A stretch of DNA of 64,000 bases from Xanthomonas vasicola (GTDB lineage Bacteria > Pseudomonadota > Gammaproteobacteria > Xanthomonadales > Xanthomonadaceae). The stretch covers positions 1 through 64,000 of the forward strand of contig NZ_JSBW02000059.1 of NCBI RefSeq assembly GCF_000772705.2, in the 5' to 3' direction. Shown here piece by piece: positions 33,494 through 36,549 of the stretch. A model generated the notes under the pieces. It had not been told where the DNA came from. It did not search any database and worked only from the letters and a program-made list of their open reading frames with translations. Position numbers and translations under genes: made by a program. Position 1 is the stretch's first letter. Each line of letters begins with the position of its first letter.

Positions 33494-33852
33494 CGCTGGA
33501 AGCCAGGGCGGGCGCGTCGGAACTTTGAACCAAGCGCAGCTGAGAGACGACTGCGCATGCACCATGCGGGCGCGGTCGGTGCTCTGTGCGGCAGGTGCCA
33601 GTTGTACGCTGCGGTTCCTGCGCGCCGTCCGCACCATCCGACGACTGCTTGCTACGTTTTGGTAGCTGCTCAATGTGCCGCGGCGCTGATCAGTGCTGGT
33701 GTCGTCGGGTGATTGGAATGGATGTCGTCGGTGTCATGCCGTCCTGCGCGAGCGCGAGGGGCACCACGCCAAGCCCACAGCGCTCTGAAGCATTCACGAA
33801 CAGGTGCAGGCCAATCTCATAGGCTGAGACGCCGCCGTTGCATGCTGCCCGC
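33494..33852. other. Intergenic region, 359 nt, containing a dispersed repeat copy
   Basis: It holds the repeat copy at 33596-33670, which also occurs at 43257-43330. No gene was recognised in the rest. The end provides the leader for the radical SAM gene; no clear ribosome binding site is visible there. Confidence 0.45.
33596..33670. repeat. Dispersed intergenic repeat, copy A
   Basis: This is about 75% similar by eye to 43257-43330, sharing blocks such as GCGCGCCGTCC/CGCGCCGTCC and GCTACGTTTTG. Both copies lie roughly 60-110 nt downstream of plus-strand genes in the same orientation. It is probably a lineage-specific intergenic element. Confidence 0.6.
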
Positions 33853-35097
33853 GTGAAAATCCTCGACAAGCTCGCCGTCCTCGCCGACGCCGCCAAATAC
33901 GACGCCTCCTGTGCCTCCAGCGGCGCCAACAAGCGCAATTCGTTGGGCACCGGTGGCATCGGCAGCACCGAGGGCATGGGCATCTGTCACTCCTACACGC
34001 CCGACGGCCGTTGCGTGTCGCTGTTGAAGATCCTGCTGACCAATTTTTGCATCTTCGATTGCGCGTATTGCGTCAATCGCGTGTCCAGCAATGTGCGCCG
34101 CGCGCGCTTCACGCCGGAAGAAGTAGTCACGCTCACGCTGGACTTCTACAAGCGCAATTACATCGAAGGCCTGTTCCTGTCCAGCGGCATCATCCGCAAC
34201 TCCGACTACACCATGGAGCAGCTGGTGGAAGTGGCGCGGCAGCTGCGCGAGGTGCACCATTTCGCCGGCTACATCCATCTCAAGACCATTCCCGATGCAA
34301 CGCCGGAGTTGCTGGCCGCTGCCGGGCGTTACGCCGATCGCCTGAGCATCAACGTAGAGTTGCCCACCGAGCAGGGCCTGACGCTGCTGGCGCCGGAAAA
34401 AAGCGTGGGCGGCATCCGCTCGGCCATGGGCGAGCTGCGCTGGCGCATCGAAGAAAATCAGCTCGAACGCAAAGCCGAGAAAGTGCGCCGGGCCAAGCCG
34501 CCACGCTTCGCACCGGCCGGGCAGAGCACACAGATGATCGTCGGCGCCGACGATGCCAATGACCGCAGCATTCTGGACACCAGCCACAATCTGTACGGTA
34601 ACTACCGCATGCGCCGGGTGTACTACTCGGCCTTCAGCCCGATCCCGGATGCTTCGTCCAAATTGCCACTGCAGGCACCGCCGCTACAGCGCGAGCACCG
34701 GTTGTATCAGGCCGACTGGTTATTGCGCTTCTACGAGTTCAGCGTGGAAGAAATTGCACCGGCGCAATCCAGTGGCATGCTTGATCTGGACGTGGATCCC
34801 AAGCTGGCCTGGGCATTGCGCAACCCGGAGCGGTTTCCGGTGGATTTGAATGCCGCGCCGCGCGAGATGCTGCTGCGTGTGCCGGGCCTGGGCACGCGCA
34901 ACGTGGAGCGTTTGTTGTTGTCGCGCCGGCATGCGCGCTTGCGCGTCGGCGACCTGGCGCGGCTGCGCGTGCCGATGAAAAAGCTGCTGCCGTTCGTCAG
35001 TGTGCTCGATCATCATCCGCGGCAACGGCTGGACGATCCGGTCAGGTTGCGTGCGCAGTTGGCGCCTGCGCCTAGGCAGGCAAGTCTGTTCGACTGA
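33853..35097 (+). CDS. Radical SAM protein linked to UdgX, putative DNA modification/repair (with C-terminal helix-hairpin-helix)
   Basis: 414 aa from GTG 33853, chosen because the protein then begins KILDKLAVLADAAKYDASC, as relatives do; an in-frame TTG lies 5 codons earlier. The 4Fe-4S cluster motif is CIFDCAYC (Cys66, Cys70, Cys73). Other conserved parts are SGIIRNSDYTMEQL and SINVELPTEQGL. A helix-hairpin-helix (LNAAPREMLLRVPGLGTRN) lies near the C-terminus, a non-specific DNA-binding element. The family (known as the UDG-linked radical SAM group) is encoded next to UDG-like proteins; its reaction is unknown. The partner gene starts 6 nt later. Confidence 0.9.
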   Translation: MKILDKLAVLADAAKYDASCASSGANKRNSLGTGGIGSTEGMGICHSYTPDGRCVSLLKILLTNFCIFDCAYCVNRVSSNVRRARFTPEEVVTLTLDFYKRNYIEGLFLSSGIIRNSDYTMEQLVEVARQLREVHHFAGYIHLKTIPDATPELLAAAGRYADRLSINVELPTEQGLTLLAPEKSVGGIRSAMGELRWRIEENQLERKAEKVRRAKPPRFAPAGQSTQMIVGADDANDRSILDTSHNLYGNYRMRRVYYSAFSPIPDASSKLPLQAPPLQREHRLYQADWLLRFYEFSVEEIAPAQSSGMLDLDVDPKLAWALRNPERFPVDLNAAPREMLLRVPGLGTRNVERLLLSRRHARLRVGDLARLRVPMKKLLPFVSVLDHHPRQRLDDPVRLRAQLAPAPRQASLFD

Positions 35098-35103
35098 CTC
35101 GCT

Positions 35104-36549
35104 ATGTTCAGCGCTGAGGTGGAACCACCGTGGAGTTTTGAAGCGTGGCGTGCATTGGCACGGGCGGGCTGGTGCGCGCAGGTAGGGCCGGATGATGTGG
35201 CCTGGGATGGTGGTGCGCAGGGCGGGCTGTTGATGGGGCGGGGGCTGCTGGAGTTGACGGCCGCAGTGCCGCCACCGCGTGTCTCTGCAGACTTCATGCA
35301 GCTGGCCGCATCGGTACTGTGTCATCGCGACCCGCAGCGGCACGCCGTGCTGTATCGATTGCTGTGGCGGATCGCTTCTGGCGAAAAAGCATTGCTGGAG
35401 CGCGCCACCGATGTGGATGTGCACCGGCTACGGCAATGGCAGAAGGCGGTGCAGCGCGATACGCACAAGATGAAGGCCTTCGTGCGCTTTCGCCGGCTGC
35501 CCGGGGAAGAAGAAGACTTCGTTGCCTGGTTCGAGCCCGAGCACTGGATCGTGGACCGGGTGGCGCCGTTTTTTGCGCGGCGTTTTGCCGGCATGCGTTG
35601 GGCGATCTTGACCCCGTACCGCAGCGTGCGTTGGGATGGCGAGGCACTGAACTTCGGCGAAGGTGCGGTGCGCACGCAGGTGCCGGCCGACGATGCACAG
35701 GAAGCACTGTGGCGCACCTATTACGCACATATCTTCAATCCGGCGCGGCTCAACCCGACCATGATGCGGCAGGAGATGCCGCAGAAATATTGGAAGAACC
35801 TGCCCGAAGCCGCGTTGCTGCCGGAGCTCATTCGCGAAGCCGGCGTGCGCGTGCGCGAAATGGCCGAACGCGCGCCTGAGCCAGTACGGCGACGGGTACC
35901 GGTGGCGCCGGCGCCCATGCCGGACGTGGCAACCCAAAACCTGGCGCAGTTGCGCAGCGCTGCACGCGATTGCCGGCGTTGCGAACTCTGGCAACCGGCA
36001 ACGCAGACGGTGTTCGGCGAAGGGCCCGACGATGCATCGGTGATGGTGATCGGCGAGCAGCCGGGCGATGAAGAGGACTTGAGCGGGCGGCCGTTTGTCG
36101 GGCCCGCAGGGCGCCTGTTCAACATGGCGTTGGGCGAGCTGGGTGTTGATCGCGAAAGGTTCTACGTCACCAATGCGGTCAAGCATTTCCGTTTCGAACA
36201 ACGCGGCAAACGGCGGCTGCACCGCAACCCGGAGCGTACGCACGTGCAGGCATGCAGTGGGTGGTTGCAGGCCGAGCGCGCGCAATTGCGTCCTGCACAG
36301 ATCATCTGCCTCGGTGCGACTGCGGCGCAAGCGGTGTTGGGGAGTAGCTTTCGATTGATGCAGGAACGCGGGCAGTGGCAGCGCCTGGAAGATGGCACAC
36401 CGGTCTTGACGACGGTGCATCCGTCCTGGATATTGCGGCAGCCATCGACGGATGCACGCGAAGAAGGCTATCGCGGATTTGTCGAAGATCTGCGTCGGTT
36501 GCTGGACCCGCCGCAGCCGCAGGAACGTTCGCTCGAGAGAAAAAGGTGA
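35104..36549 (+). CDS. DUF4130 plus UdgX-type uracil-DNA glycosylase-superfamily fusion
   Basis: 481 aa. The DUF4130 half (about 80-250) contains KMKAFVRFRRL. The UDG half (about 275-475) has motif GEQPGDEEDLSGRPFVGP, four Cys that can hold a 4Fe-4S cluster (Cys290, Cys293, Cys384, Cys402), the KRRLH loop with His373, and HPSWILR. In UdgX of Mycobacterium the equivalent His forms a covalent link to uracil-containing DNA. Here the KRRIH equivalent is conserved, so covalent trapping is plausible by homology. Co-transcription with the radical SAM protein is expected. ATG 35104 begins MFSAEVEPPWSF; the ribosome binding site is not clear. Confidence 0.9.
   Translation: MFSAEVEPPWSFEAWRALARAGWCAQVGPDDVAWDGGAQGGLLMGRGLLELTAAVPPPRVSADFMQLAASVLCHRDPQRHAVLYRLLWRIASGEKALLERATDVDVHRLRQWQKAVQRDTHKMKAFVRFRRLPGEEEDFVAWFEPEHWIVDRVAPFFARRFAGMRWAILTPYRSVRWDGEALNFGEGAVRTQVPADDAQEALWRTYYAHIFNPARLNPTMMRQEMPQKYWKNLPEAALLPELIREAGVRVREMAERAPEPVRRRVPVAPAPMPDVATQNLAQLRSAARDCRRCELWQPATQTVFGEGPDDASVMVIGEQPGDEEDLSGRPFVGPAGRLFNMALGELGVDRERFYVTNAVKHFRFEQRGKRRLHRNPERTHVQACSGWLQAERAQLRPAQIICLGATAAQAVLGSSFRLMQERGQWQRLEDGTPVLTTVHPSWILRQPSTDAREEGYRGFVEDLRRLLDPPQPQERSLERKR

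Follow-up and report, generated by a model that had tools for sequence, protein, structure and literature searches.

A gene for a radical SAM protein stands immediately ahead of a gene in which a DUF4130 domain is fused to UdgX in a 64,000-nucleotide stretch of Xanthomonas vasicola DNA (contig NZ_JSBW02000059.1, positions 1 to 64,000; hereafter the window), and the question raised by this locus is what the two proteins do together. The reading that we favor, with moderate confidence, is that they belong to a damage-induced, clamp-recruited radical SAM repair operon in which DUF4130 is the obligate partner and UdgX an optional one. The genes and their domains are located as follows.

33853..35097, + strand: radical SAM gene, 414 amino acids, GTG start at 33853 (alternative TTG at 33838)
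34048..34071, + strand: CxxxCxxC radical SAM motif, Cys66/Cys70/Cys73, invariant in orthologue alignments
34840..34977 (approximate limits), + strand: C-terminal helix-hairpin-helix (HhH), placed from the Pfam HHH_3 matches of relatives (L113, L115) and from PDB profile matches
35104..36549, + strand: DUF4130-UdgX fusion gene, 481 amino acids, ATG start, 6 nt past the radical SAM gene on the same strand
35131..35811, + strand: DUF4130 domain (TIGR03915), residues 10-236, 221.8 bits, over the curated cut-off
35815..36498, + strand: UdgX domain (TIGR03914), residues 238-465, 322.9 bits, over the curated cut-off

The gene pair and its families

The two same-strand genes 6 nt apart had been recognized in a first-pass annotation made from the letters alone, and their coordinates (33853-35097 and 35104-36549) are confirmed. 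In an NCBIfam profile search the radical SAM protein matches TIGR03916 'rSAM_link_UDG' with 559.6 bits against a curated cut-off of 343.5, so that by score the window proteins are members of the TIGR03916/TIGR03915/TIGR03914 gene set. We take COG4277 to be this same radical SAM family. NCBIfam labels it a 'putative DNA modification/repair radical SAM protein', and we know of no reaction assigned either to the enzyme or to DUF4130. Pfam finds Radical_SAM in the first protein and DUF4130 plus UDG in the second, in agreement with NCBIfam that the second gene is a DUF4130-UDG (UdgX) fusion, as had been proposed. The C-terminal HhH, also proposed earlier, holds by way of relatives and of weak PDB profile matches, the best being ComEA HhH domains (E 0.027-0.04); the window protein itself has no Pfam HhH match, HHH_3 being seen in the relatives L113 and L115.

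The radical SAM gene is present in all 35 genus genomes examined, our own included. Because of this, and because its pairing with DUF4130 holds in 84 of 84 cases (below), the pair is real and a chance product is excluded. One genome of the genus (G028) has the gene in two overlapping pieces, each below the cut-off (G028:C1:1321503-1322722), through a frameshift or a sequencing error.

DUF4130 as obligate partner and UdgX as accessory

The distribution of the three families was surveyed in 398 Pseudomonadota genomes, counting only matches over the curated cut-offs. There are several features of this distribution that bear on the question. First, the radical SAM gene is found in 84 genomes, and in every one of these DUF4130 lies downstream of it on the same strand; the distance between the profile ends is within 162 nt in 75 and within 717 nt in 82, with two at about 3 kb. 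Second, DUF4130 is seldom seen on its own, only three of 87 genomes having it without the radical SAM gene. Third, UdgX accompanies the pair in 63 of the 84 (62 adjoining, and including G253, whose UdgX part sits at a different contig's end, and G214, where the match covers the C-terminal part only), and an over-cut-off UdgX is absent in the remaining 21, in which weaker UdgX matches were placed in part only. Two of these UdgX-free pairs (G159 and G242, loci L034 and L030) had their DUF4130 open reading frame read, and it contains no UdgX. Fourth, of the 78 genomes with an over-cut-off UdgX, 15 are without the radical SAM gene, 13 of these lacking DUF4130 as well and two having it. Finally, a DUF4130-only partner of 244-292 amino acids is found in Phocaeicola (L113), Acetoanaerobium (L114), Acinetobacter (L116) and the gammaproteobacterium L023.

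A quick tree of the radical SAM proteins (93 clusters, 81 of them labeled and 12 unlabeled for UdgX; the root was chosen by us and two long branches are flagged) has the presence of UdgX changing at least 12 times, with five changes forced by well-supported branches. Shuffling the labels gives a mean of 14.7 changes against the 12 observed, which points to weak clustering of UdgX, and all four labeled rows of the distant group used as the root are without it. On gene content, then, DUF4130 is the obligate partner of the radical SAM gene, and the 21 pairs and distant relatives without UdgX, together with its changes on the tree, argue that UdgX is an accessory to the radical SAM-DUF4130 core. 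The linkage of the radical SAM gene to UdgX does recur in relatives (63 of 84), and the earlier view of the locus as a DNA-repair-type operon with conserved linkage is supported.

A clamp-binding-like tail on the radical SAM protein

The last residues of the radical SAM protein resemble the peptides by which enzymes bind the beta sliding clamp.

35077..35091, + strand: QASLF, residues 409-413, candidate beta sliding-clamp-binding motif of the QxxLF form

The clamp-motif consensus is given as QL[S/D]LF, generally QxxLF, with QLSLPL binding tightly in Escherichia coli (PMC12309361), and a C-terminal QLxLF is described as common among clamp-binding enzymes (PMC4549789). Tails were surveyed in 190 radical SAM-like open reading frames; 25 were dropped as incomplete, lacking a stop or scoring below 300 (a paralogue in L115 among them), and the remainder merged into 148 distinct sequences in 93 clusters. 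The proteins end in QLSLF, QLELF, QMSLF, QASLF and similar sequences. A broad motif, which adds hexapeptide and LL/LI forms, is present in the last 20 residues of 86 of the 93 clusters, Q..LF in 61, and the strict QL[SD]LF in 26. By comparison, Q..LF occurs in eight and the broad motif in seven of 3993 other open reading frames (mechanical calls, mostly not real genes), Q..LF in two of 1876 windows taken from other parts of these proteins and in two of 133 C-termini of the partner proteins, and the broad motif in about 2% of shuffled tails. The tail is independent of UdgX, being present in 64 of 65 UdgX-bearing clusters, 13 of 16 UdgX-free clusters and nine of 12 that are unassigned. From the conservation of this peptide, the radical SAM enzyme is likely to bind the replication clamp. 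A literature search for 'clamp-binding motif' together with 'radical SAM' found no paper.

Three extra cysteines

The radical SAM motif is preceded by three further cysteines, which, like the QASLF tail, do not figure in the first-pass annotation.

33910..34014, + strand: codons of Cys20 (33910-33912), Cys45 (33985-33987) and Cys54 (34012-34014), candidate auxiliary Fe-S site

All 148 distinct orthologues have Cys20/45/54 followed by Cys66/70/73 in fixed order, with spacings of 22-29, 8 and 11, and the six are also invariant in alignments of 12 (A1) and 50 (A2) sequences; 94 of the 148 have no other cysteine. The Cys66/Cys70/Cys73 cluster motif read earlier from the single sequence is thus present throughout. 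Because the three-cysteine set is fixed beside the radical SAM cluster it suggests, speculatively, an auxiliary Fe-S cluster. The distant paralogue in L115 (a Gemmatirosa kalamazoonensis plasmid), which scores below the cut-off, is without the three N-terminal cysteines; it does carry an HhH and, close to the C-terminal end, the sequence QLSLW, and no DUF4130 was found within its 9 kb.

The UdgX domain

The C-terminal domain of the fusion protein retains the R-loop with its histidine.

36208..36222, + strand: R-loop KRRLH with His373 (codon 36220-36222), aligning with the covalent His109 of Mycobacterium smegmatis UdgX

Alignment to 6ajo identifies the UdgX hallmarks GEQPG, KRRLH and HPSWILR in the window protein. 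Among 122 distinct fused sequences (unclustered, and many from one genus), His373, Glu318, Asn357 and Arg371 are each present in all 122 and Gln319 in 120, and the domain looks active. The alignment of His373 with the covalent histidine, proposed in the first-pass annotation, is thus borne out by its conservation; that annotation had the histidine binding uracil, however, whereas in M. smegmatis the bond is to C1' of the sugar at the apurinic/apyrimidinic (AP) site, attacked once uracil is excised and with Glu assisting (PMC10359453).

Four cysteines had been put forward as cluster ligands. Three of them are well conserved in the same sequences (Cys290 and Cys293 in 109 of 122 each, Cys384 in 110), and the fourth is not: Cys402 is not a likely ligand, because it is kept in only 14 and the aligned residue of the M. 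smegmatis protein is Leu. His361, present in 117, may be the fourth [4Fe-4S] ligand and is a better candidate than Cys402. About one tenth of the fused UdgX sequences are without Cys at the 290, 293 and 384 columns (some of these being alignment gaps) and always keep the covalent His, such that a clusterless UdgX may exist.

LexA boxes upstream of the pair

Of 146 distinct regions upstream of the radical SAM gene, 101 contain a GTTC-N7-GTTC direct repeat, the alphaproteobacterial LexA box (PMC3323433), compared with about one in shuffles that preserve base composition only, and GTTC repeats with other spacers are found in 0-4 regions. The placing is consistent, with 91 of 106 sites lying 20-60 nt ahead of the start. 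Sixty of 77 regions from named genome contigs have the box, and 14 of the 17 without it are from beta- or gammaproteobacteria or Verrucomicrobia; the boxes at the pair are mainly alphaproteobacterial. The beta/gamma-type box CTGT-N8-ACAG is present in four regions where 0.56 are expected, all in Burkholderiales. A COG1573-COG4277 operon is predicted to be SOS-regulated in Bacteroidetes, and reports for Verrucomicrobia and Alphaproteobacteria are cited in the same paper (PMC8565304); through the equation of COG4277 with TIGR03916 assumed above, we have taken this operon to be the present pair.

In 80 loci, the genes near the pair include an error-prone-polymerase group in nine, an IMS-type polymerase group in seven and an ImuA-like group in seven, the polymerase-type neighbors being identified by the annotation of their copies from L132 only. 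A 26-locus 'neighbor family' was set aside, since the example runs antisense across the gene pair. The boxes and the published predictions speak for damage-type regulation of the gene set, which would be damage-induced in the present genus too.

A repeat common to the radical SAM operon and mrfA in Xanthomonadaceae

In the window itself the region ahead of the pair contains a different element.

33815..33829, strand not assigned: inverted repeat TCTCAtaggcTGAGA with the core TCTCA-N5-TGAGA, 38 nt before the radical SAM start, candidate operator

The core is present in 24 of 25 Xanthomonadaceae upstream regions of the radical SAM gene, Pseudoxanthomonas (with P. suwonensis locus L121) and Stenotrophomonas included, and the exception (L004) has one base changed. 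The loose pattern TCTCAN5TGAGA occurs at six places in our own genome against none for the backwards pattern; about five are expected by chance for 10 fixed bases, and the claim for the repeat therefore rests on its recurrence across genomes. There are 52 sites of the strict form GTCTCA-N5-TGAGAC in 21 genus genomes and none of the backwards pattern. At the radical SAM operon the strict form is present in 17 of the 21 and the core in all 21 (G000, G008, G011 and G017 having the core only). A second recurring site, the single 17-mer GTCTCATACCCTGAGAC, is found in 20 of the 21, and the four that were opened (G000, G003, G009 and G015) all precede mrfA. The MrfA of G000 was identified by its match to Bacillus subtilis YprA structures (E 8.7e-216) and by the Pfam MrfA Zn-binding domain. 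MrfA (YprA in B. subtilis) has a role in mitomycin C repair. In our own genome mrfA lies on contig C68 (L229:631-3126), with the repeat 57 nt upstream (L229:574-588).

Eleven further genomes were also inspected, and the repeat is beside mrfA in six (G154, G360, G451, G150, G035 and G455), four of which are in genus g24, taken as Stenotrophomonas, and one of which (G455) is from another family. G150, one of the four g24 genomes, has the repeat at mrfA and no radical SAM gene. Since the repeat is at mrfA both there and in G455, mrfA may have had the operator for longer than the radical SAM operon. Several other repeat sites opened in the further genomes have no evident repair gene, and many sites were left unopened. 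From its recurrence at both genes, mrfA and the radical SAM operon are likely to be co-regulated in Xanthomonadaceae. The repeat does not correspond to any LexA box known to us, and damage induction through it in this genus is presumed. A small gene of 74-85 amino acids whose product starts MDRA has GTCTCAN5TGAGAC about 22 nt before its start at five places in four genus genomes (G000:C44:104481-104497 in L203; L255, L257, L259 and L260), and is a possible third member of the group.

A proposed pathway and its alternatives

The operon that we favor would be induced by DNA damage, and the radical SAM protein would reach DNA through its HhH domain and its C-terminal clamp-binding peptide. 5'-deoxyadenosyl-radical chemistry would then act on a damaged nucleotide, possibly with a second Fe-S cluster on Cys20/45/54, and DUF4130 would serve in substrate recognition or in a second catalytic step. 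Where UdgX is fused, it would cut out uracil and seal the AP site by a bond to its own His, protecting the site near the fork. Family membership, the pairing, the optional UdgX, the six cysteines, the tail and the upstream elements are seen in the sequences; clamp binding, action on a DNA lesion and induction in this genus are inferred, and the auxiliary cluster, the identity of the lesion and the reaction are speculative. A more specific version, put forward tentatively and rather doubtful as a whole, has the clamp-tethered enzyme, with a second cluster on three cysteines, repair bulky or cross-linked lesions directly together with DUF4130; in Xanthomonadaceae an unrecognized regulator responding to damage would induce it along with MrfA, and UdgX, where present, would shield AP sites.

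Several points weigh against a clamp-recruited repair operon. First, the tail in the window is QASLF and not QLSLF, the strict QL[SD]LF is present in only 26 of the 93 clusters, and the broad patterns behind the figure of 86 were fixed partly after the tails had been seen. Second, the three extra cysteines could instead bind zinc or be structural. Third, a remote-homology search with DUF4130 gave nothing usable, and no report of a DUF4130 activity was found in the available parts of the literature consulted. Fourth, the enzyme might act on a nucleotide or on a protein instead of on DNA. Fifth, a presumed Xanthomonas LexA pattern matches none of the 146 upstream regions. Finally, in three of the eleven further genomes (G091, G342 and G047) all listed repeat sites were opened and none is beside mrfA, and two (G036 and G056) have no repeat site, the presence of mrfA not having been checked in these five.

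The alternative that survives best, constitutive DNA base modification by the pair with UdgX guarding against uracil-like by-products, we nonetheless consider unlikely. Nucleic acids are often modified by radical SAM enzymes, and the NCBIfam name allows for modification as well as repair. The LexA boxes, the published SOS predictions and the repeat in common with mrfA all favor repair, and the pair matches no catalogued defense system and is rare in viral contigs (see below), even though the legend of a 2013 figure names thymines as a possible target of modification by the associated enzymes (PMC3765255).

Quite unlikely is an enzyme resembling spore photoproduct lyase that directly reverses UV thymine dimers. 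The same 2013 survey ties DUF4130 to 'SplB-like radical SAM photolyases' (PMC3765255), whereas a paper on Bacteroidetes lists SplB (COG1533) apart from the COG1573-COG4277 operon (PMC8565304). Moreover, by sequence-profile comparison only, no spore photoproduct lyase is among the NCBIfam matches up to E 10 (few of those beyond about 0.1 pass the program's filters), nor is a structure of one matched up to E 10 with a 50-sequence profile.

On a level with this we place a tolerance factor, in which clamp-bound radical SAM protein and DUF4130 regulate translesion synthesis (imuA-imuB-dnaE2) at the fork. The invariance of the radical SAM cysteines and the three extra ones in all 148 orthologues points to catalysis rather than regulation; polymerase- and ImuA-type neighbors (9, 7 and 7 of the 80 loci) and the clamp-like motif are what such a factor would have, and yet most of the 80 loci are without these neighbors within 6 kb.

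The proposal of the first-pass annotation, that the radical SAM enzyme processes or releases the covalent UdgX-DNA adduct, or else acts on a base that UdgX recognizes, fares poorly as the core role, and adduct processing we hold to be very unlikely. The genes are in the same operon, UdgX is in 63 of the 84 pairs and the covalent His is in all 122 fused sequences. Nevertheless, 21 of the 84 pairs lack an over-cut-off UdgX, 15 of 78 genomes have UdgX without the radical SAM gene, the distant relatives have the radical SAM protein and DUF4130 only, with at least 12 changes of UdgX on the tree, and the literature proposes RecA-dependent resolution or proteases for the adduct (PMC10359453). An adduct-related role may exist in the UdgX-bearing lineages only.

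A phage or defense system can be set aside: neither protein matches any family in PADLOC-DB (anti-phage defense), and in 2.9 million viral contigs the window protein as query found one relative, a 12-sequence profile finding two loci, one of them on the contig already found.

Relation to known systems

The description of this pair as an undescribed system was too strong, in that three NCBIfam models exist and the COG1573-COG4277 operon is published (PMC8565304). That operon likewise has two genes and predicted DNA-damage regulation; it is described as putative uracil-based excision repair (PMC8565304), whereas here the core is radical SAM plus DUF4130 and the uracil part is optional. Prior knowledge covers the gene pair itself, as well as the SOS link provided that COG4277 is the present family. 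The UdgX domain has in common with that of M. smegmatis (E 3.6e-58) the GEQPG, the KRRxH R-loop with its covalent His and HPSxxLR, and differs in being C-terminal to DUF4130 and adjoining a radical SAM gene; a Xanthomonas campestris protein is among aligned UDGX sequences in one report (PMC10776899). Spore photoproduct lyase is likewise a radical SAM protein acting on DNA (as we propose for the present enzyme), but no profile relation beyond the superfamily is found, and the present protein has the HhH, the three N-terminal cysteines and the clamp-like tail. MrfA, whose gene bears the same upstream repeat in Xanthomonadaceae, is a helicase and no homologue of the radical SAM protein.

New here are the clamp-like tail, the three extra invariant cysteines, the finding that UdgX is optional and the repeat in common with mrfA; no published mention of the tail, the six-cysteine rule, optional UdgX or the common repeat was found in the available parts of the literature, the clamp tail being the subject of the targeted search. 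With the tail, the possible second cluster and the regulatory link to mrfA, claims open to direct test take the place of a loose 'putative repair' annotation, and the core pair is set apart from UdgX, on which most attention has centered. These genes are common (the radical SAM gene is in 84 of the 398 Pseudomonadota genomes sampled), and a clamp-tethered, two-cluster radical SAM repair enzyme would, if true, add a radical-based branch to direct DNA repair.

Records in a phage collection

A 'phages' collection contains 10 records, eight of them human-faecal fragments and two Acinetobacter 'phage' records, and one of each kind was opened. The human-faecal record carries no annotation. The other, CAKLQH020000003.1 (L116), entered in GenBank as 'Acinetobacter phage', has the radical SAM and DUF4130 genes beside glyS and glyQ and resembles a mislabeled chromosome.

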